This document shows positions 7,650-56,198 of a stretch of 64,000 bases of DNA, in pieces (position 1 is the stretch's first letter; each line of letters begins with the position of its first letter). Under the pieces are notes generated by a model that was given only the letters and a program-made list of their open reading frames with translations, was not told the DNA's origin and did not search any database. A program made the position numbers and the translations under genes. Location of the stretch: assembly GCF_004210375.1 (NCBI RefSeq), contig NC_134825.1, positions 75,445,558 to 75,509,557 of the forward strand, read 5' to 3'. The stretch is from Tachypleus tridentatus. Taxonomy: Eukaryota; Arthropoda; Merostomata; Xiphosura; Limulidae.

Positions 7650-7766
7650 GTCCCCTGGTGGTACAGTAGTAAGTCTACGGATTTACAACGCTAAACCCAG
7701 GGGTTCGATTACCCTCGGTGGACTCAGCAGGTAGCCCGATGTGTCTTTGCTGAAAGAAACACTTAT
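7650..7766 (+). repeat. SINE-B copy, full length
   Basis: Clear SINE-B order: cctggtggtacagtagtaag (A-box-like), tacggatttacaacgctaaa, B-box-like ggggttcgatt, then ctcggtggactcagcagg and tgtctttgctgaaag. It is tRNA-like, but the anticodon arm is distorted and no functional tRNA is implied. Confidence 0.88.
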
Positions 7767-8165
7767 TTCATAAGTGAACTTAATTTTGATTGGCTCTCAA
7801 ATGAATATGTCGGCTTTTGACTGGCTCGATTGCACTTTCCTGCCTCTTTGTTGGTCAAACTTGGTATTGCAAAATGTATTTATTTCAGTTCGCTCTGAAA
7901 TGTGAGGTTAGGGTGTACGACATTTTTGATGAGCTATACGCTTGTAATAAATAATGACTCGTTTATCTGACATCCTTGTTTGATCTTTTTTTAAAAGGTC
8001 GGACGATATCAAATATTAACATTTCGAACCTAATTCTTAAAGATTCTTATTAACATTTTTAGATATAACTTTCATGTCAAAGTAAAATATGTTTATCTTT
8101 TTTGTTCTTGTTGTTAGGACTTACTTGCCTCTTTCGGTTTTAGCAAGCGTTGAATACTAATGCAT
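7767..8165. other. Intergenic stretch upstream of the hairpin
   Basis: AT-rich; nothing recognised. Confidence 0.4.
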
Positions 8166-8275
8166 AACATATATGTCTCAGTATTTGTTGTTGCACTGGT
8201 AATCAATTATTTTGAAAAATCTTTCATTAAATAATTGATTACCAGTGCAACAACAAATACTGAGACATATATGTT
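8166..8275. repeat. Perfect 47-bp inverted repeat (hairpin)
   Basis: Arms 8166-8212 and 8229-8275 are exact reverse complements, around a 16-base loop. The loop holds a further short pairing (tgaaa with tttca). Zero mismatch in an otherwise much-mutated region suggests recent formation, gene conversion or selection. It could be a foldback mobile element, a hairpin-RNA (siRNA or miRNA-like) locus or a structured upstream element of the cytokine gene whose TATA box lies 320 bp downstream. Confidence 0.95.
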
Positions 8276-8595
8276 TATTATTCTTATTGGTGGTCTGTAC
8301 AGGTCTGCGGAAATGAACGATATCGTAGCAGTGATTCACCGGTATTCAATATTTAAAGTCACACAAACATGAATATTTCTTGCGACGGTCTGGGTATTTT
8401 TTGTAACGGAAATGCTTCTATAGGGAAATTATAAAAATTAAACATTTATATTTTTACTGTTTAAATAAATTTGTGGATATTCCTTCAAATATATATATAT
8501 ATATCACAAAAAAAGCAATTACTGTAACTTGGAAAATACAACTGGAAATGCGCCACTAGCCGTTGAGCACATAATATTCGTAGGTGGATTTTTAC

Positions 8596-8603
8596 TATAA
8601 ATA
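8596..8603 (+). promoter_or_regulatory. TATA box of IL-17-like gene 1
   Basis: TATAAATA stands 106 bp before the chosen ATG. A start of transcription about 30 bp downstream would give a 5'UTR of roughly 70 bases. The second gene of the pair has a TATA box at nearly the same distance. Confidence 0.55.
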
Positions 8604-8701
8604 TTTTGGCTGATATTCTTCATAATTATTCTGAATGTTCTCTATATTGTTTGTTTATAACTTCAAGCATTTTCAGACTTAATACAAATTACCCAGACAA
8701 A

Positions 8702-9298
8702 ATGTTTATGTTTTTCAGTTTATTGTGCTTCACAACACTAACAATCATCGCAAGAACAACCAACGGTTATCCTACGCATGATAATTCTAACGACAGCGAG
8801 AATGACCATCAACTATCTTCTACTATCAAGACCTTTGATGTCGAAGCCGAAAGTTTATTCCTTCTTCTTAACTCACCAAAAAACGTTGACCTTTTTATTA
8901 AAGATAATCTTACACATTGGTACTTGACAAATGATAAAGAAGCTATTTGTGATAGTGAGTCTACTAATGAATCCAGAAGTGTCGGAAATCGATTGGAATA
9001 CAGGGTAGATTGTCCTTTTTTCTGGGAAATGGACTTCAACTCTGACAGAATCCCAAAGTTCATGATGCGTGTAAAGTGTTGCTCTACAACTCCAGTTTAT
9101 AAACACCAGACTCCAGAATTTGAAGAACGTTGCGAAGAAGCTAAGAATCCAGTTCCAGTGTTATGGCGTCAAATCAATGCTACAAATGATTTTACTATTG
9201 AGTTTCAGCATGGCTGGGAAAATATATCCTTTGGCTGCATTAAAACATCTACATTAATAACTTTCTCTAGAAACAATGGGGATATTAGACCCTCTTAA
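8702..9298 (+). CDS. Secreted IL-17-like cystine-knot cytokine, gene 1
   Basis: A single-exon frame of 198 codons. The open frame extends upstream to 8606 but only with a TTG; the ATG at 8702 is followed directly by a hydrophobic signal peptide (MFMFFSLLCFTTLTIIA), so it is taken as the start. After an acidic spacer and the segment TFDVEAESLFLLLNSPKN comes the cystine-knot region, with Cys104 (in DCPFFWEMDFNS), an R-I-P motif, Cys126-Cys127, Cys144 (ERCEE) and Cys179 (GWENISFGC). The 22-residue C-P...R-x-P...C spacing is that of IL-17 cytokines, which act as extracellular dimers on IL-17 receptors. Possible N-glycosylation sites are N69, N89, N159 and N174. The usual C-x-C at the end of the IL-17 domain is absent. 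It is a diverged paralogue of the gene at 15624. AATAAA stands at 9784. The IL-17 assignment rests on spacing and motifs, not on a search. Confidence 0.8.
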   Translation: MFMFFSLLCFTTLTIIARTTNGYPTHDNSNDSENDHQLSSTIKTFDVEAESLFLLLNSPKNVDLFIKDNLTHWYLTNDKEAICDSESTNESRSVGNRLEYRVDCPFFWEMDFNSDRIPKFMMRVKCCSTTPVYKHQTPEFEERCEEAKNPVPVLWRQINATNDFTIEFQHGWENISFGCIKTSTLITFSRNNGDIRPS

Positions 9299-9324
9299 AT
9301 CTAAGGATATTTTATGATAGTGGC

Positions 9325-9429
9325 GTGTGGTTTTCTTACAGCAAAGCCACATCGGGCAATCAGCTGAGTCCACCGAAGGAAGTCGAACCTCTGATTTTAG
9401 CATTGTAAATCCTTAGACTTATCGGTGTG
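9325..9429 (-). repeat. SINE-B copy in the 3' flank of IL-17-like gene 1
   Basis: Reverse-strand SINE-B (cagcaaagccacatcgg, cgaacctctgattttagc, cttatcggtg). It is flanked by exact 10-bp duplications tgatagtggc at 9315-9324 and 9430-9439. It begins 26 bp after the stop codon, so it is probably part of the transcribed 3'UTR. Confidence 0.9.
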
Positions 9430-9439
9430 TGATAGTGGC

Positions 9440-9930
9440 TTTCACACACTGTAGTTAACTGGCATGTTAATTGTATAGTGACACCTGCACATTTTATTTG
9501 ACTAGTATGTTTATATAACAGTGTTACGAATTTCACTTAACTGAATGTTATTTTTATAGTCATTGTTCATAAACAATATGTTGGAAGAAAAACTGTGATA
9601 TTTATTTTTGTTTTTCTTAGTTTTGTGATACTATTTAAATTTACTGTTTATGTGTGTTTTTCATATTTATTTCTTTATATTATCATAAGATTTTACTTAT
9701 TTCAGATAAAGATTTTTCATATACAATTGAAATTAAATAATAAGATTTCTTGAATCTATATATCCTGTTTTTTATATATTTATAATAAAATTATTAAAAT
9801 GGTTCTGATGTCTTCGCTTTACTCCTTGTTTAAATAAAAACCTTCTTGAAATTATCTTATATTTAAATATTTACTCTCAAGAACCCCAGATTTTCTTCAG
9901 AAATATAATCTCTGATATTAACTATTTCAA
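9440..9930 (+). other. Probable 3'UTR and flank of IL-17-like gene 1
   Basis: Very AT-rich, with several scattered ATTTA pentamers (around 9632-9670) and AATAAA hexamers at 9784-9789 and 9833-9838. Where the transcript ends cannot be told from sequence. Confidence 0.4.
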
Positions 9931-10165
9931 GAGCCCAGCATGGCCAAGTGGTTAAGGCACTCGATTCATAATCTGAGGGTCACGGGTTCAAATCTCCGTC
10001 ACGCCAAACATGCTCGCCCTTGCAGCCGTGGGGGCGCTATAATGTATCGGTCAATCCTGCAATTCGTTGGTTAAAAGAGTAGCCCAAGAGTTGGCTGTAG
10101 GTAATGACTAAATTAGGGACGGCTAGTGCGAAAAGCTCTTGTGTAGCTCCGCAAGAAATTCAGAC
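9931..10165 (+). repeat. SINE-A copy
   Basis: Head cccagcatggccaagtggtt, B box cgggttcaaatctcc, and a body with a deletion between ggctgtaggtaatgact and aaattagggacggctag. Confidence 0.9.
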
Positions 10166-10466
10166 CAAACTGTTTTAAATCCTTGTAATTTAAGTAACGA
10201 ATATTACTTTTCACAAGTCTGATAACTTGTTTCTTAAAAATTCGCCGCTTACTATAACTTTGAAAAATCTGATACTGTTAATACGAAGCTGCTAGATATT
10301 TTTCAAACTACTGTGATGCAATTACGTCATTTAGGGTGCATCTATATTCTTTAGTTTTTCCTGCACACAAAAAAGGATATTTGACACAACAGGAGTATAA
10401 ACAGGAAAAATATAGTTGAGGAGTTAAGGTAGTGTCAGTTTTTTAATAAATAAAATGAAGACCAGA

Positions 10467-10590
10467 ATTTGTTTGTTTGTAATTATGCAAAAAGCTACAT
10501 AATGGGCCAACTGTGTTCTGCCCACCATGACTATCAAAACACAATTCCCAGCGTTGTACGTTTGCAGAAATACCACTTTGCCACTGGAGG
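10467..10590 (-). repeat. SINE-C copy, degenerate
   Basis: Reverse-strand match to the third tRNA-like family: agctacataatgggccaact, gttctgcccacca, agcgttgtac and ccactgga. Open frames over this interval on both strands are shadows of the repeat. Confidence 0.8.
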
Positions 10591-10677
10591 AAATGTTGAA
10601 GAATTTTACACAGATACATGCACACATACACACTTCATAAGAATATTTTTTGTTGTTTTTTTTCATTTTTGAAATTG

Positions 10678-10768
10678 CACGCTAAAATCAGGGGTTCGAT
10701 TCCCTTCGGTGGGCTCAGCAGATAGCCCGATGTGGCTTTGCTATAAGAAAAAAAAACACACACACACA
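10678..10768 (+). repeat. SINE-B copy, 5'-truncated
   Basis: Begins inside the family at cacgctaaaatcagggg, then has the B-box-like ggttcgattccc, ggtgggctcagcagatagcc, gatgtggctttgctataag and an A-rich (CA)n tail. Confidence 0.85.
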
Positions 10769-12299
10769 TTCTTGAAAAATGCAAATTTCTTTTAACATAT
10801 CTGCAATAGCTAATAAACAAACCTCTCTTTCGTATAAGAATTACCAAATTGGTATTTAATTGGAAAATTTTATTTCGCTTTGTCTATATTTTATTTATCG
10901 AAACATGCAGCGGGAAAAAAAGAAATTGGAAAAATCCCTTCAAAGCCAACCAAAAAAGCATACTTGTTTGTTCTGTGTGTGGTGGGGTGTTTTCTTCTTC
11001 TTTTTGAAGAAGAAAGAATAACTTATTAGACGAGACTGGAAAATAAGGCTTTATAATTATGAAAACAAAAATAATAAAATCCAACAAGAAATCAATTTTT
11101 TTAACCTTTTTCTGATTATAACCGACACATATTAAGAACGTTTTTAAATTTTTGTTATGTATACAAACGAACAACACATTTACAGTAATAATAACAAATA
11201 TATATCATCTACTTTCCTACGAAATTAGTGATCATTTAAATAGGTACATGGAATTGGCTAAATTAGTTACAAAGTTATTTTGTAGTTCTGATTTATACAG
11301 TTAGGTTTGCTTATCTAAATTTATCGATAATCACAAGAATAAAAAGGTGTAAAGCAACTTGCGAAACTAGTATAAAAAGATGGGAATCTATTGTTCAAAG
11401 ATTAACAAAAATTATAGAATTTGATTTAAACATTTGTCTTACCTCTAAAGTACAACTACTCTTCACTTATTTAATCAGTTGCAAAGTAACTATTTAATCA
11501 CCACATTTTTATAAAATGTTATCGTGAACAAAAGTACGTGTGCACTTTGAAAGAAACTTATATAGCACCCTTAAGCCTTTTCACTGTATTTTAGGTCAGG
11601 AAGTAAAAAAACGTAGTGCGGAAATTCCGATACAAATCTTCAAGTCTTTCGACTGTACAAAGGATGAAAAATATTTGGTAGTAGTAAACGTTTATTTTCT
11701 TTATGTTTTAAGACCAAGTAGATAGTATATGTGTTAAATTACCAAAATAATTTTTATTAATTAACATTTAATTAATTTCACTACTTAATTTTTTTAATTA
11801 CTTACTCTATAACGTTATTAATAACAAACATATTTGTAGTCTAATTTAAGCATTAACCGTAATATATATATATAACATAAGGCTTAGCAGAAACAATACT
11901 TGATCAATTTTATTTTCCTTTTAGCTCCACCTCAATATCATTAAGTTTCTGAATTCAACTATTTTGCTGTTATCAAAACAAAAAATTACAGAAAATCAAA
12001 CCTGTCTAACAAATCAATATGAATATTGAACATTCAACATAAACACCATAGCTGACTTAAGAACAATCAGGCGATAGTTTTGTTGCTAAGCGATGATGCG
12101 TATTTTTGAGCATTGCCAAAAACAGAGAGCGAAAGCATTTTCGACAGAGTGAAAAAGAGAATAAATCTTTTGTAGTTAGTGATTATAACAACTGGAAAAT
12201 ACTCAACAATGTTAAATACTTATAGCGATAAATCGATTTTGAAGAGCAGAATGTGGCCGATGACTTTAGATAAAACATAAACTTTATTCATCCGTTTTT
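10769..12299. other. Intergenic stretch, nothing recognised
   Basis: AT-rich. Open frames at 10884-11177 (-) and 11540-11725 (+) lack codon bias, domains or conserved-looking motifs. Confidence 0.45.
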
Positions 12300-12552
12300 C
12301 TGATATTGGTCTAGTAGATATGGTACTCGACTCGCGGGTTCAAATTCCCGTCTAACCAAACATGTTCAATCTTTCAGGCGTGGGGCATTATAATGTGATG
12401 GTCAATTCAACGATCCGATTCGAGTAACTAACAGTTGGCGGTGGTTGATTAACTAAATGCTTTGCCCCTAGTCTTTCTCTTTTAAATTAGGGATGGCTAG
12501 CATAGGTAACCCTCGAATACCTTTTCGCGAAGTTCAACAAACAAAACAAACT
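12300..12552 (+). repeat. SINE-A copy, strongly diverged
   Basis: Parts of the head remain (ctcgcgggttcaaattccc), with a partial deletion of the anticodon region. The body has cagttggcggtgg and aattagggatggctagc, and the tail is caaacaaaacaaac. Confidence 0.82.
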
Positions 12553-12679
12553 GATTAGTTTCGTTTAAATTTACCTACTATATATAAACATTTTTTTTAG
12601 AAATTATTTAAATATGACCGCATAGTAAATCCGAATAATTTGTTATATCAACCATTACCATAAAAAAAAAAGAGTCTAC

Positions 12680-12765
12680 ACTGTGGGCGCGCTATAAAAG
12701 TGACTGTAAAATCCCATATTCGTTTAACAAAGATTAGTTATTTTCCTCTAGTCTTTCGGACCAGA
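12680..12765 (+). repeat. SINE-A remnant
   Basis: Only gtgggcgcgctataa, atcccatattcgttt and ttcctctagtctttc are recognisable, in the SINE-A order. Confidence 0.5.
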
Positions 12766-13739
12766 AATTTGATCACTAAAATAAGGAAGGATTTTATAAA
12801 AAAGTAACGATAAAGTAGGGTAACACTATGACTTAGCTTTCCATGACTAAGTGTCTTCTTCTGGCTCCCTCACGATATAATTATATATTTTGTGAGTTTT
12901 ACTAAACATTTTAAGTGAATCACCATGAATACTCTGTCTAATCAAGACAAGTAAGCAAGAGGAGCATAGAATACTTCCCTTGGTTTTCCTCGGTGGGTAA
13001 AATAAGCCTAAATATCATACCGTTACACATCTTTCATTTTTTTCCACATTTCTTTCAACTGACGACACTAATCACAGGAAACTACCACAAGTTGGCTTCA
13101 ATTTGTCACAGAAATGTATGGGTATTCTGAGTGAAAATAGTTGAAATGCAATATTTTTTTCCCCAGAAACGAAAGGAATACTTATTTATTTTTTTTAATT
13201 AGGGAAGCCACAGAAAAGTTAAAAAGTAAGACCTGTATGTAATTCTTGTAATTCTCGGTTGAAATATACTATCTACATCGGCATTCACAACGACTAAATA
13301 CATAGTTTGTTGTTGTTTGTTTGTTTTTTAAAATGAAACTTTCAAATCAACACAATTTGAGTTGTGCTTGTTTACATTTTTATCCAACATTAAAAAATTC
13401 CATCTGTTCGCACTGTCAGAGCTTATGAACGATTGTACTTCAATTACTTCAGATGTCTTTACAATATCTTAACCTCTATTACTATGACTGAAGTAACAAG
13501 AATCTTACATGGTAGAATCATACAGTAAAGAAATCACGACACGGAAATACATATTCACCTTATAAGTTAATGTGTAAAATTAAGTCTCCATTCATAATAT
13601 AATGCTTACCATTCAAGAAATTGTTGAAAATGTTTTTTTTTTTGTAAGCGAAGATCTTGAACAGAGTAAAGATAAAAGAAAAAAAACTTCAAGTACTACT
13701 TTCCAAAATGCATGCACTTCCATTATTTGTAAATTTTTG
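12766..13739. other. Intergenic stretch, nothing recognised
   Basis: AT-rich with homopolymer runs. No supported gene. Confidence 0.45.
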
Positions 13740-13852
13740 TTTGTTGATAAGGGAAAGCTAATATAATGGGCAATCTGTATTCTGCACACCGCGGATGTCC
13801 AAACCCGATTGTGAACGTTATTATCAAACTTACATCTGACCCACTGGAGGGC
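13740..13852 (-). repeat. SINE-C copy, degenerate
   Basis: Reverse-strand order agctaatataatgggcaatc, gtattctgcacaccgcgg, then acccactggaggg matches SINE-C. Confidence 0.7.
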
Positions 13853-14263
13853 GTCATCTGTAATATCCTGGAGTTGAGAAAGTTAATGTGAACGTGATTC
13901 GCATGTGTGTTATTTTCTTAATAAATGTACAAGTGCTTTAACCAACCTAATTTTCGCGGTTTGAATCCAGCTTTAGAGCACTTGTGTTTACCAGGTGCTC
14001 AGTACTTACATATCATGTAATTCAATAGAATAAACTAAGTTTGATTTTTCTTTAAATTTCAATTCTGAACAGCGTTTTATACGTCTGTGTATTTTCTCCT
14101 CTCCCCCCTCTTAAAAATAGACTGCTCGGAAATATAATTTGTCAAACTATATGATGTACCGGCTATATTTAATAAACACGGTGTATTTAACATAAAATAA
14201 AGCTCTACACCAGGGCTGTGGGAGGGAGCTGAGATGTATTTAACTAAGAGAAGAAAAAGAATG
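13853..14263. other. Intergenic stretch, nothing recognised
   Basis: No supported gene or repeat. Confidence 0.4.
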
Positions 14264-14346
14264 CGCTCCCCAGTGGCACAGTGGTATGTCTGTAGACTTC
14301 TAGCGCTAGAAACCGGGTTTCAATACCGCAACTGGATAGAGCACAC
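14264..14346 (+). repeat. SINE-C copy, 3'-truncated
   Basis: The head part ccccagtggcacagtggtat, ctgtagacttctagcgctag and gggtttcaatacc is present. The usual continuation into the tail is lost after gatagagcac. Confidence 0.7.
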
Positions 14347-14472
14347 TTTAATCCTGTAAACTCTTGATTTCTGGATTAAATTTTAAGCATTTTCCAACTT
14401 TTTCTTAAAGAAACTTTGATAGATTTTACTATCCCCCAGCCCATCTGATCCCCACGTTACTGTAAACAGTTA

Positions 14473-14590
14473 GTGTGTATGCGTCTTTCTTATAGCAAAG
14501 CCACATTGAGCTATCTGCTGTATTCACTGAGGGGACTCGAACCTCTGATTGTAGCGTTTTAAATCCGTAGACTTACCGCTGGATCAGCGG
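14473..14590 (-). repeat. SINE-B copy with target duplication
   Basis: Reverse-strand SINE-B (tcttatagcaaagccacatt, cgaacctctgattgtagc, cttaccgctgg). Flanks gtaaacagtta (14462-14472) and gtaaacaatta (14591-14601) differ at one of 11 positions. Confidence 0.88.
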
Positions 14591-14601
14591 GTAAACAATT
14601 A

Positions 14602-15490
14602 ATAAAAAAAATCTTTATTTAAAACTATGGACTTTACTCTGCGATTTACGAAGAATAAATGGAATAAATTTTACCTTTATTTTATATATGTTATTTTAAC
14701 TTAGTTCTATAGCTTGTATTTTCATAGTCAATGATACTATCTGATAGCTAATACGAAAATTAAACATTGATTTCATGTAATATAAAAGAGTAATACTGGA
14801 AGAAGCAAAATAAACCCTCTTATGATCTTTATGGATGGAGTTGAGGGGTACGTATGTAAACTGTTGTCGCTTACACTCATTAGAGTGGAAACTGTAGACA
14901 AAAAAAAAAGGCCAATATGCTATAAAACTTAATTACATGATTTCTATTTCATTTAATTCTGAAAATCGTAACAGTTTTGTGTTTTTGGCAAGGCAGTCTG
15001 TCCTGTTTATAAGTCGCTTACAAGAAGTTCAATTGTAATAATATAATTTAAAGCAATCCTTTAAAAAAAAAAGATTAAATTAGGAAGATCCTCAAAATTC
15101 CTTGGGTGTTAGATACGTTTTTTTAAGACTGTTGTGACGTCAACAAAACTGTTCTCCAGTAGACGCAGGAAATTCTATTGTGTGAATCATGCTCATTTGT
15201 GTACTCGCTCCACGTGATTAGGGAATAACCAAAACATCAATATACAATATCATGTGCTAGGTATCTGGGGGGCCTTTTGTAAACATTACTTCGAGTCATC
15301 TTCAGATAACTCAAAATATGTAGATGACTATGGGGTTTTGTAAAAATGTTTGGAAAGTCAGAAATCAGAGCTCTCCTTTCTTAATCCCCCATTTAATCAC
15401 GCACATGAAGTGAAATAAAGTATTATTGAAATTACTGAAAATGAATCATGTTTAAAGACAACTGGGAATTACAATAGTTTTATTACCCAT
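14602..15490. other. Intergenic stretch upstream of IL-17-like gene 2
   Basis: AT-rich; no supported gene. Any distal control elements cannot be identified by eye. Confidence 0.4.
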
Positions 15491-15493
15491 TGT

Positions 15494-15529
15494 CCAATGC
15501 ACACGTGGTCTTTTTGTCACATATATAAG
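15494..15529 (+). promoter_or_regulatory. CCAAT and TATA boxes of IL-17-like gene 2
   Basis: CCAAT at 15494-15498 and TATATAAG at 15522-15529. The TATA box is 102 bp before the ATG, close to the 106 bp of gene 1. The predicted 5'UTR is about 70 bases and needs no intron. Confidence 0.6.
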
Positions 15530-15623
15530 CTACCCATAAGATTATTCAAATTCATCTGAATTTTTGAAGAACTTCATTATTACATCAAGCAAGTAACTGA
15601 GTCGTTTAGATTGGGTTCGAAAG

Positions 15624-16226
15624 ATGTGGACTTCTGAGATTTTTCTAATTGCTTTAGTAAAGGCATTCATCGTATGCAAAGGCATTGGTCATCCCATGTC
15701 TGATCCTCTAAATTTGAACAATAATACTACTGACCAACCACCATCTTCAACAATACAAACAATTGACGTTGATGAAGAGACGTTGTTTGTACTTATTAAC
15801 AGCCCTAGAAATATCAACAGTGTGATAGCTGAAACTATGCATGAAAACTACGTAAGAGAACTCAGTCAAACTTTTTCATGGACTGACGGAAATGGAGAGT
15901 TAATTGCTCCAGGCAACCCAGTAGAGTACAGAGCAGATTGTCCGTTTTACTGGGAAATGGATTTTAACTCGAAAAGAATTCCACAGTATATGATGCAAGC
16001 AAGGTGTCTCTCTATGGTCCCACAGCATCAACACAAAACACACGGTTTAGTAGAAAGATGTGAGGAAACATCGCATTTAGTGCCTGTGCTGTGGCAAATT
16101 AATACTCAAACGTACAACTTTATTCAAGAATATCGCCATGGTTGGCAAGCAGTGTCTTCAGCATGTGTCAAAACGTCTACTAAGATCTCGTTCGCTCTGC
16201 CTTCGATGACAGCCAGACAAAGTTGA
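15624..16226 (+). CDS. Secreted IL-17-like cystine-knot cytokine, gene 2
   Basis: An intact single-exon frame of 200 codons. The ATG opens a signal peptide (hydrophobic around IFLIALVKAFIVC, cleavage likely near residue 20). The segment TIQTIDVDEETLFVLINS follows, then Cys106 (DCPFYWEMDFNS), R-I-P, M-M-Q-A-R-Cys128, Cys146 (ERCEE), VPVLW and Cys181 (GWQAVSSAC). Cysteine spacings of 22, 18 and 35 residues are identical to those of gene 1. In the 29-residue block ending at Cys128, 20 positions are the same in both. C-P, R-x-P and A-x-C occur at offsets 0-1, 12-14 and 20-22, as I recall them in IL-17 proteins. NNTT near residue 34 is a possible glycosylation site. The role inferred is an immune or developmental cytokine signalling through IL-17 receptors. 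Other cystine-knot families (Spaetzle, trunk) fit the motifs less well. Confidence 0.82.
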   Translation: MWTSEIFLIALVKAFIVCKGIGHPMSDPLNLNNNTTDQPPSSTIQTIDVDEETLFVLINSPRNINSVIAETMHENYVRELSQTFSWTDGNGELIAPGNPVEYRADCPFYWEMDFNSKRIPQYMMQARCLSMVPQHQHKTHGLVERCEETSHLVPVLWQINTQTYNFIQEYRHGWQAVSSACVKTSTKISFALPSMTARQS

Positions 16227-16294
16227 ACAACAAACAAGATTCAATATCTTCCTGTTTTGTTTTTCATGTATTTAGACATTTTAGTGTTAGTGTC

Positions 16295-16310
16295 ATTTAT
16301 TTATTTATTA
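16295..16310 (+). promoter_or_regulatory. AU-rich element in the 3'UTR of IL-17-like gene 2
   Basis: ATTTATTTATTTATTA, three overlapping ATTTA pentamers 69 bases after the stop. Clustered AUUUA motifs are known to destabilise short-lived mRNAs such as those for cytokines. Here this is inferred from sequence only. Confidence 0.5.
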
Positions 16311-16507
16311 TAAATGTTGAAGTAATTTGATCCAAGCGCTGAAAGCGTTGGAGGAAATCTAATCCAATACTGTGATAATATTTTCATCAATGAACAAAGT
16401 ATATTTTTAAGTTTATGTGGTAGCTTTATATCCTTTATTCGAGATGTAATTTTATAAAGTGTTTGTCTACGTTTCGTAAGCGTTTACATGTAATAATTTA
16501 AACATAG

Positions 16508-16513
16508 AATAAA
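16508..16513 (+). terminator. Poly(A) signal of IL-17-like gene 2
   Basis: AATAAA, 282 bases after the stop codon, giving a plausible 3'UTR of about 300 bases that includes the AU-rich element. Confidence 0.5.
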
Positions 16514-32978: not shown

Positions 32979-33141
32979 CTGACAAGTGCCTGGGAATCCT
33001 CTAAAACTGCCTCGTTTAGTTTTGGACTGTCCCATCTACACAGCACTGTAACAATTTTCCTGACAAGTGCCTGGGAATCCTCTAAAGACTGCTTCGTTTA
33101 GTTTTGGACTGACCCATCTACACAGCACTGTAACAATTTTC
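32979..33141. repeat. Tandem duplication of about 81 bp
   Basis: Unit 32979-33059 (ctgacaagtgcctgggaatc ... cactgtaacaattttc) is repeated at 33060-33141 with only a few changes, so the duplication is fairly recent. Confidence 0.92.
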
Positions 33142-40122: not shown

Positions 40123-41392
40123 CAGGGTGTCCCAAAAAATGTATACACATTTTGAATGACTATAAATACAATGTTAATTAAGATATATCTAGGTTTTATG
40201 ATCCAAGTTTAAGAAGAGAAGTGTAGAATCTTTTGAGTTACCGCAGGTGTTCGAAATGATGACCGTTCTGATTCAAGCATTACTGATAACGCGGACAGAT
40301 GGAATTGTAAACTTCACGAATCATTTCATTTGGTATTTTGGTGCATTCTCTTTCAATTGCTGCTCTCAGCTCATTGATTGTTGCAGGTTTTTTGCTATAA
40401 ACCTTATCTTTGACTATCCCCATAAAAAAAAGTCCAGAGGTGTGAGGTCTGGTGAACGTGGGGGAAATTCAGTTCTACCTCTTCGCCCAATGCATCCGTT
40501 CGGCAAATTTTCGTCAAGATAGGCTCTCACATTACGATGGTATTGGGAAGGTGCTCCATCTTGCTAGAAATAAAACTCCTCATCTCCAAATTGCTCTCGA
40601 ATGCGTGGCACGATAGATTCTTCCAGCAAGTTCAGATAAACGAGACCAGTGACTGTGTTTTGGAAAAAGAATGGTCCATCACGTACCACGCTGATAATCC
40701 ACACCAAATTATAACTCCTGGTAAGTTTACGTGGCATTCAACCGTAACATGCGGGTTCTGAGGTGCCCAGTAGGTGCAATTGTGGCGATTAACTGAGCCA
40801 TTTAACTTCAATGTGGCTCCAGAAATGGCTCCAGAAATCTTGTTTGGAAACTATGTATCCTCTGCAGATTTTTCCAGGTACCACTCACAAAATTCATCTC
40901 TTCGGTCAGGATCATCTTCATTGAGGGCGTGGACTAATGCCGGAATAAAACTTTTCCAATGAACGTGCTTTAACATGCGATGGACGCTCGATTTTGGGAT
41001 TCCTGTCTCACAGGTTGTTTGCCGAACAGATTTTCTTGGGGATCGATGGAGACTTTCTAACAGCTCTGCTTCTCGTGTGAGACTGATTGACGGTCGCGGT
41101 CTTTCAGAACGCCCTTTATAGACGTTTTGAACAGTTACATTTGTTTCAAACTTATCTCTGATGCGAGTAATGGTGAGTCGCGTTGGTGGATTTGTTTGAA
41201 ACTCCCTTCTAAACCGTCTTTGCACTTCAGCTACGTTCTCGCACTTCCAGTACCATTTTAAGATAAATTTCGTTTTCTCAAATTTTAGTCTTGCTTCTGC
41301 CATTACTTCAAATCAGTTTCACCTGTAAAAAAAGAAAGTTTTACTGAATTATAATCATTCAAAGTGTGTATACATGTTTTTGGGACACCCTG
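40123..41392 (-). mobile_element. mariner-like (IS630/Tc1/mariner) transposon
   Basis: TIRs cagggtgtcccaaaaaatgt and its near-complement (acatgtttttgggacaccctg) with TA at 40121-40122 and 41393-41394. About 1.27 kb with a decayed transposase on the - strand. Complete termini and a recognisable gene suggest moderate age. Confidence 0.93.
40250..41303 (-). pseudogene. Decayed mariner-like transposase
   Basis: Starts with [10 protein letters not shown] at 41303 and is open for 150 codons. It contains a helix-turn-helix region ([27 protein letters not shown]), a second binding region ([20 protein letters not shown]) and [19 protein letters not shown] before the catalytic core. Further on, in other frames, come QDGAPSQYHRNVRAYL with the second catalytic Asp and FPPRSPDLTPLDFFLWG with the third. 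Part of the core around the first Asp is missing and frameshifts and stops interrupt the end, so no active enzyme is made. Confidence 0.88.
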
Positions 41393-55170: not shown

Positions 55171-56198
55171 CTCTTCAAAACAAGAAACGCAAAAGGGATA
55201 TTTTTTTTATTTTAAAGAGAAATATATGTAATAACGTTACAAGCTCAGAGTATGTGATGTTACACGTATTAAGGCACTGATTGTCAGACCAAAATGACAA
55301 TAAAAGTTGTGCACTTTGAAAACGGTAAAAAACAACGGAATTCTCGCCAAAACGCATTCGTGTCCAATAAATTTGTATGAGAGATCTGCATGTTCTGCAA
55401 GTGCAACATGTGCAAAATCCCTATAAAAGTGACGGGTTCTCGGTTTCCATAGCTCAGTGTTAAGCGACCGACACGCAATACACTTACGCCAAGACTGACT
55501 GAAGCACAACGCAACAACGCCATTGGTCGCTTGAAAGCAGGCGAATCTCGATCAGATGTTGCCAGAGCTGTGCATGTCCACCCAAGCACCATCACAAGGT
55601 TATAGAATTGTCACCAACAACATGGATCAACTCGTGACTGTCCACGATCTGGCAGACCTCGTGTGACCATGTCCGCACAAGATCGCTACATCCGGTTACG
55701 TCACCTTCGGGATAGGACCACCACTGCGACGTCTACTGCCTCAACCATACCAGGGCTGCGTAGGATTTCCGATCAGACCGTACGCAACCGTCTACAAAAT
55801 GCAGGAATCCGACCTCGACGTCCAGTCAGAGGAGTCATCCTCACCCAGCAACATCGTCAAGCACGGCTGCAGTGGACTCGGGCACATCGGGTATGGATGG
55901 CCTCATCGACGATGGAGGCATGTTTGGTTCAGCGATGAATCACGTTTTATGCTTCGTAGGCAAGATGGAAGGACTCGTGTTTACCGTCGCCGAGGTGAAC
56001 GTTTTGCAGCAAACTGTGTGCAGGATGCTGACAGATTTGGTGGTGGCAGCGTCATGATGTGGACTTCGCCTTTGCAGACTTTAGATGTTCAGCACTGAAT
56101 GTGCAAAGTTTCACACATGTCATACAGAACTACCCGGAATAAACTTGTTAACAATTTGTCTCAAATTTTGCCTTTTGCGTTTCTCTTTTCTTGAAGAG
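55171..56198 (+). mobile_element. Tc1-like transposon, internally deleted
   Basis: TIRs ctcttcaaaacaagaaacgc and its near-complement at the right end, TA at 55169-55170 and 56199-56200. Only 1.03 kb because the second half of the transposase is missing. Confidence 0.92.
55490..56070 (+). pseudogene. Truncated Tc1-like transposase
   Basis: RLTEAQRNNAIGRLKAGESR starts the DNA-binding part, which is broken by one stop (STITRL*). SGRPRVTMSAQDRYIRLRHL and the second helix-turn-helix (RRISDQTVRNRLQNAGIRPR) follow. After a frame change comes WFSDESRFML with the first catalytic Asp, then GERFAANCVQDADRFGGGSV. The sequence stops at GGGSVMMW, so the second Asp and the Glu of the catalytic triad are absent. 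Confidence 0.9.

Follow-up and report, generated by a model that had tools for sequence, protein, structure and literature searches.

A tandem pair of apparently single-exon genes coding for divergent IL-17-domain proteins in Tachypleus tridentatus

Are two neighbouring genes of Tachypleus tridentatus members of the IL-17 family, and if so, what kind of ligand do they code for? The initial annotation of the window (here, the whole stretch of 64,000 nucleotides that was analyzed) described a tandem pair of intronless IL-17-like cytokine genes, with products of 198 and 200 residues, located on the same strand and some 6.3 kb apart. The open reading frames agree with this layout (Table 1), the end of gene 1 and the ATG of gene 2 being separated by 6,325 bases. 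We have recomputed the spacing of the cysteines in both products (22, 18 and 35 residues; proteins P0001 and P0002), and the 20 of 29 identical positions in the block ending at the second common Cys, and obtained the same values. The absence of introns holds for the coding part: both frames lack internal stops, and the protein alignment downstream of the signal peptide contains a single gap of two residues, so that the coding part looks intronless, while the 5'-UTR might still contain an intron.

Table 1. Features of the gene pair, with positions counted from the first letter of the window.
Feature	Position	Strand	Details
TATA-like site, gene 1	8596..8602	+	106 bases upstream of the ATG; its start is the reported limit 8596
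Gene 1 coding sequence (P0001, 198 aa)	8702-9298	+	Predicted signal peptide about 1-22, variable linker, IL-17 domain
IL17 domain, gene 1	9011..9241	+	Residues 104-180, PF06083 positions 3-78 of 81; C104, C126, C144, C179
First polyadenylation-signal-like hexamer (ATTAAA) after gene 1	9732..9737	+	Others at 9784, 9793 and 9833
TATA-like site, gene 2	15522..15528	+	102 bases upstream of the ATG
Gene 2 coding sequence (P0002, 200 aa)	15624-16226	+	Predicted signal peptide about 1-22, variable linker, IL-17 domain
IL17 domain, gene 2	15939..16169	+	Residues 106-182, PF06083 positions 3-78 of 81; C106, C128, C146, C181
Polyadenylation-signal-like AATAAA after gene 2	16508..16513	+	Its end is the reported limit 16513

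The two proteins are paralogous, with 42% identity over 179 aa (blastp, E 1.35e-54). The IL-17 domain is better conserved between them (49 of 95 positions identical) than the linker (24 of 73). Over 195 aligned codons there were 266 codon-position differences, 74, 79 and 113 of them at the first, second and third positions. The NG86 estimates were 0.54 for dN and 2.4 for dS, a saturated value that makes the comparison a pointer to constraint only. The genes are probably old tandem duplicates, as far as age can be read from a saturated dS. No convincing third copy was detected within the window, the best other tblastn match having an E value of 0.068 and stops inside.

The initial annotation had proposed a profile search with PF06083 (IL17) as a check. 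P0001 passed the curated cutoff of 24 bits (24.7 bits, E 3.2e-5; 24.1 bits with the whole open frame) and P0002 fell 1 bit below it (23.0 bits, E 1.1e-4; 22.8 bits with the whole open frame). Pfam reported no other family for P0001 or P0002 at E values up to 10, a nominal limit given that the HMMER filters remove most matches above about 0.1. NCBIfam gave no match for either protein, which carries little weight in a library that serves bacterial and archaeal genomes. Comparison with solved IL-17s gave weak, negative or out-of-register results. A sequence search of the PDB with an E limit of 10 gave a single weak match for P0002, to IL-25 (E 0.3), extending over R-x-x-(S/C)-P ... E-x-D ... R-x-P-Q ... 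A-R-C, and nothing for P0001 or for a profile made of both rows. The best local alignment of P0001 to human IL-17A (score 50) was reached by only 1 of 1000 shuffles, but in another register, with the first core Cys region of P0001 paired with the C-terminal end of IL-17A; hhalign gave the same out-of-register pairing with a probability of 0.9%. The best alignment of P0002 to IL-17A was in register, yet 134 of 1000 shuffles reached its score. These alignments to human IL-17A do not support the proposed register, and vertebrate IL-25/IL-17E, IL-17A and IL-17F as a group have no significant in-register pairwise similarity to the pair. A search for relatives in viral contigs left none confirmed among 30 pattern matches.

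Similarity to solved IL-17s that is weak, absent or out of register is what would be expected if the PF06083 match were due to chance and these were unrelated secreted proteins with four cysteines. We consider this highly improbable: the E values are low (although, coming from paralogs, the two matches are not independent), both proteins match the same range of the profile, and none of 10 shuffles with the cysteines kept fixed matched it.

The pattern of cysteines points to the same family. The first two intervals of the four common cysteines, 22 and 18, are those of the Ser-22-Cys-18-Ser arrangement of IL-17A, and the last one is 35 residues long versus 32. The interval of 22 is also kept in ungapped alignments to IL-25, IL-17F and IL-17A, and the one of 18 was confirmed for IL-17A. 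The pair also has the R-x-P ... C motif in common with these vertebrate proteins. Both P0001 and P0002 have Cys at two columns where IL-17A has Ser, located 22 and 18 residues from the first core Cys (the first and third cysteines of the pair). On the other hand, only the first of each pair of core knot cysteines (C-x4-C ... C-x-C) is found in either protein, and the two missing columns are Pro and Lys in both. Judged from these residues, the second core disulfide, present in IL-17A, is missing from the pair. Because two core knot cysteines are missing, we have filed the proteins as divergent members of the IL-17-domain superfamily and not as canonical IL-17. The description as IL-17-like therefore stands for the family relationship, on account of PF06083 and the Cys spacing, with the canonical core cysteines incomplete; the residues support divergent IL-17-domain proteins, not textbook IL-17.

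These two missing cysteines, together with IL17 scores so near the cutoff, could also fit membership of another family of cystine-knot growth factors (Spaetzle, Trunk/PTTH, noggin-like or NGF-like) whose resemblance to IL-17 is convergent. All these families have Pfam models, and Pfam reported none of them, within the usual limits of the HMMER filters. The R-x-P ... C motif and the 22/18 spacing also fit IL-17, and we regard such a membership as improbable.

The extra cysteines of this divergent IL-17 domain have a parallel in other invertebrates. A third disulfide has been described in invertebrate IL-17s, formed by two Cys at positions where chordates have Ser (PMC4517768). Motif 3 of that work, LN[SC]VP, fits the second Ser/Cys column of P0001 and P0002, and the first column would correspond to the serine of SPW in IL-17A. 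The IL-17s of invertebrates such as Daphnia, molluscs and sea urchin resemble our pair in having a C-terminal domain of about 77 aa and apparently Cys at both columns of the third disulfide; some members have 0 introns, among them genes of D. pulex and several of P. fucata, and tandem arrays are found in sea urchin (PMC4517768). The second core disulfide (C-x4-C with C-x-C) separates them from both window proteins.

Both proteins start with a hydrophobic stretch with a plausible cleavage site around residue 22, by hydropathy and the -3/-1 rule only, and are predicted to be secreted from this secretion-like N-terminus. The layout of a predicted signal peptide followed by a C-terminal IL-17 domain is present in the two of them. 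Neither protein has a dibasic site in the stretch that joins signal peptide and domain; P0001 has no dibasic pair at all and the single one in P0002 is located within the IL-17 motif.

These features bear on a different reading, in which the pair would be hormones of the kind of crustacean female sex hormone (CFSH), i.e., neurohormones or gonadal signals involved in sex differentiation or moulting, instead of immune cytokines. CFSH has an IL-17 domain and has been named the decapod IL-17 homolog by its authors (PMC10604874). CFSH types 1 and 2 are, like our pair, arthropod proteins with repeated duplication; paralogs are common for this gene, and two of the three Eriocheir sinensis genes (CFSH 1 and 2b, with 2a unclear) have one coding exon (PMC4888303). 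Since CFSH, a neurohormone, carries an IL-17 domain, the domain alone gives no immune role. The three strict kappa-B patterns had no site in the whole window, which would suit a hormone. A loose kappa-B-like match located 279 bases upstream of the ATG of gene 1 (8423) goes in the opposite direction; it is one of 7 such matches in the window (6 on the plus strand, 1 on the minus strand), and the kappa-B sites taken together are not informative. The cysteines fit CFSH poorly. Using the positions published for Carcinus maenas CFSH (PMC6158917), with the columns matched by us, the distance from the first Cys to the core is 25-27 versus 22 here, and that from the core to the next Cys is 12-14 versus 18. 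Types 1 and 2 have eight to ten Cys and keep C-x4-C and C-x-C, both missing here, and comparison with these three C. maenas proteins showed that P0001 and P0002 do not have the CFSH set of at least eight conserved Cys at its characteristic intervals. Neither has the dibasic site that frees the precursor-related peptide in type 1 CFSH, and without it such a peptide is not expected, although CFSH-like 2 also lacks one (PMC6158917). Overall, we take a CFSH-like hormone to be possible, though rather unlikely.

The reading frames, the paralogy, the domain match and the Cys spacing were observed directly, and the explanation built on them that we consider likely is a pair of secreted IL-17-superfamily (PF06083) ligands, with single-exon coding parts and a reduced knot, acting on a SEFIR receptor, for which an immune role is favoured. 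Each gene would give rise to a secreted ligand of roughly 20 kDa. Once the signal peptide is removed, the C-terminal part would adopt a reduced form of the IL-17-type cystine knot, held by two intrachain disulfides. In gene 1 numbering, C126-C179 would be the counterpart of the first IL-17A core disulfide, and C104-C144 presumably the Cys pair reported in other invertebrates. The ligand may dimerise and would act on a single-pass receptor with a SEFIR domain (IL-17R type); in a crab, a SEFIR protein bound CFSH in a pull-down (PMC10418988). Local immune or epithelial signalling is our first choice of role, held with about even confidence, with a CFSH-like endocrine or developmental role as the main alternative. 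The label of cytokine for both proteins is accordingly to be taken as putative.

The statement that IL-17 genes are absent from Drosophila is disputed: no homolog was found in arthropods beyond Daphnia in one survey (PMC4517768), whereas another reports one sequence of D. melanogaster, of 218 aa, with an IL-17 domain at an E-value of 4.7e-05 (PMC8353272). In what is available of these two surveys, the arthropods named include insects and crustaceans, and 'chelicer', 'limulus' and 'horseshoe' do not occur in that part of PMC8353272. That the family is little described in chelicerates is in line with the literature search: none of the matches listed, judged by title and start of the abstract, dealt with IL-17 genes of chelicerates. 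For Tachypleus hemolymph, the part available of PMC7878551 gives a KEGG 'IL-17 signaling' enrichment only. In the part available of PMC4833078, cytokine and interleukin are mentioned once each. We tentatively suggest that chelicerates, or another non-crustacean arthropod lineage, might have their own expanded clade of single-exon IL-17-domain ligands whose knot was re-wired, keeping the invertebrate third disulfide and losing one vertebrate core disulfide, an idea to which we give somewhat less than even weight. If true, it would link immune IL-17s with the CFSH hormones of crustaceans and indicate an IL-17-type ligand system already in early arthropods. For an arthropod outside the insects and crustaceans, such a tandem pair would be of use both in dating the IL-17 system of arthropods and in testing whether the crustacean hormone CFSH arose secondarily from an immune ligand. 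The change in the set of disulfides is concrete, structural and testable.

The surroundings of the genes provided little more. The TATA-like sites are suggestive only as promoter elements of both genes, since, of 9115 anchors placed at regular steps along the window, 262 (2.9%) have a TATAWAW starting 95-110 bases upstream, a range picked post hoc. The best local alignment between the upstream regions, just past these sites, was equalled by 231 of 996 random pairs, and that between the downstream regions by 591 of 996; conserved flanks are therefore not shown. Scans of the window for tRNA and Rfam families gave no matches. Among its other long frames, 7 were scanned for domains and 2 contained transposase-type domains.

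Judging by their sequences, the two genes that the initial annotation had described as a tandem pair of intronless IL-17-like cytokine genes (gene 1 and gene 2 in the table) are paralogs. Their proteins (protein 1 and protein 2) share 42% identity over 179 aligned amino acids (E 1.35e-54), higher in the domain (49/95) than in the linker (24/73) and the signal region (5/19). Third positions account for 113 of the 266 codon-position differences, with dN 0.54 and a saturated dS of 2.4. The earlier observation of two paired genes is real, and its details, a Cys spacing of 22, 18 and 35 in both proteins and 20 identical residues out of 29 in the block up to the second shared Cys, were confirmed. 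No convincing third copy was found within the 64-kb window. Each frame begins with a hydrophobic N-terminus and stays uninterrupted as far as its stop codon, which supports the description as intronless for the coding part; the genes may still have a 5'-UTR intron. A TATA-like site lies 106 (gene 1) and 102 bases (gene 2) upstream of the ATG. Of 9115 anchors distributed across the window, 262 (2.9%) have such a site 95-110 bases upstream, a distance range set after the sites were seen; against this background, finding one in front of both genes is suggestive. Locally, the two upstream regions align best just past these sites, but without significance (an equal or higher score is reached by 231 of 996 random pairs).

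Features located in the window (feature, positions, strand, evidence)
Gene 1 open frame, 198 aa	8702-9298	+	ORF scan
Gene 2 open frame, 200 aa	15624-16226	+	ORF scan
DUF4817 helix-turn-helix, E 4.2e-13; HTH_IclR, 8.2e-05	40854-41312	-	domain scan of long frames
Tc1/Tc3-type transposase fragment	55606-55935	+	HTH_Tnp_Tc3_2, E 3e-12
Minisatellite, 40-base unit, 10.9 copies, 73% matches	583-1016
Tandem repeat, 82-base unit, 2.0 copies, 96% matches	32979-33141

Both proteins likely belong to the IL-17 family, although as divergent members. The Pfam search that had been proposed as a check returned IL17 (PF06083) as the sole family for each, above the 24-bit cutoff for protein 1 (24.7 bits, E 3.2e-5) and below it for protein 2 (23.0 bits, E 1.1e-4), covering positions 3-78 of 81 in both; with the whole open frames as queries the scores were 24.1 and 22.8 bits. 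None of ten shuffles with fixed Cys matched IL17, and two gave other weak matches (E 0.12 and 0.18). Sequence searches of the PDB yielded a weak IL-25 match for protein 2 (E 0.3) and nothing for protein 1 or the two-row profile. Direct alignment with IL-17A lent no support: protein 1 aligned best in another register (score reached by 1/1000 shuffles), which hhalign reproduced at a probability of 0.9%; protein 2 aligned in the right register, but 134/1000 shuffles reached its score. The kinship therefore rests on the PF06083 profile and the Cys and motif columns.

In IL-17A (a reference whose full 88 residues match PDB chains) a spacing of 22, 18 and 32 separates four columns: the serine of SPW, the first core Cys, the serine of SVP and the Cys of GC. 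Four Cys of each window protein are spaced 22, 18 and 35. According to excerpts of PMC4517768, invertebrate IL-17s form a third disulfide from two Cys at columns that are Ser in chordates, and motif 3 of that paper (LN[SC]VP) places one at the SVP serine; the SPW serine is, by our inference, the second column. Both proteins would conform to this pattern. The second core pair is gone: its two columns in IL-17A, five residues past the first core Cys and at the second Cys of C-x-C, are occupied by Pro and Lys in both proteins. A reduced knot with two disulfides, C104-C144 and C126-C179 in protein 1 numbering, is predicted from the columns. Protein 1 has additional Cys at positions 83 and 127, and its gene encodes five N-glycosylation sequons where gene 2 has two, so disulfides and glycosylation may be unlike between the paralogs.

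As to role, an immune or epithelial cytokine is our first choice, at about an even chance. Decapod IL-17-domain proteins include the crustacean female sex hormone (CFSH), a neurohormone (PMC10604874, in part), and a CFSH-like hormone role comes second, as a possible but distinctly less probable reading. Excerpts report one coding exon each for E. sinensis CFSH genes 1 and 2b (PMC4888303) and, in a crab pull-down, CFSH bound by a SEFIR protein (PMC10418988). The cytokine role is ranked higher because the Cys pattern of three C. maenas CFSH proteins, spaced 25-27, 12-14, 29-31 by our own column matching on positions in an excerpt of PMC6158917, is not matched by the 22, 18, 35 found here, and because neither protein has a dibasic site ahead of the domain. 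Among the matches listed in the openly licensed literature, no paper on chelicerate IL-17 genes was found.

The frame with DUF4817 is read by us as a putative fragment of a mariner-like transposase. Dispersed repeats surround both genes (9332-9427, beginning 34 bases past gene 1; 14486-14581; 10679-10750; 7688-7759; 9980-10033; 12332-12385), some inverted relative to one another. They look tRNA-like or SINE-like to us and may resemble horseshoe crab elements; ARAGORN and Rfam scans of the window found no tRNA. An inverted repeat (8153-8288; 60-base arms, 90% complementary, 16 bases between), which we read as MITE-like, precedes gene 1 by about 0.4 kb.
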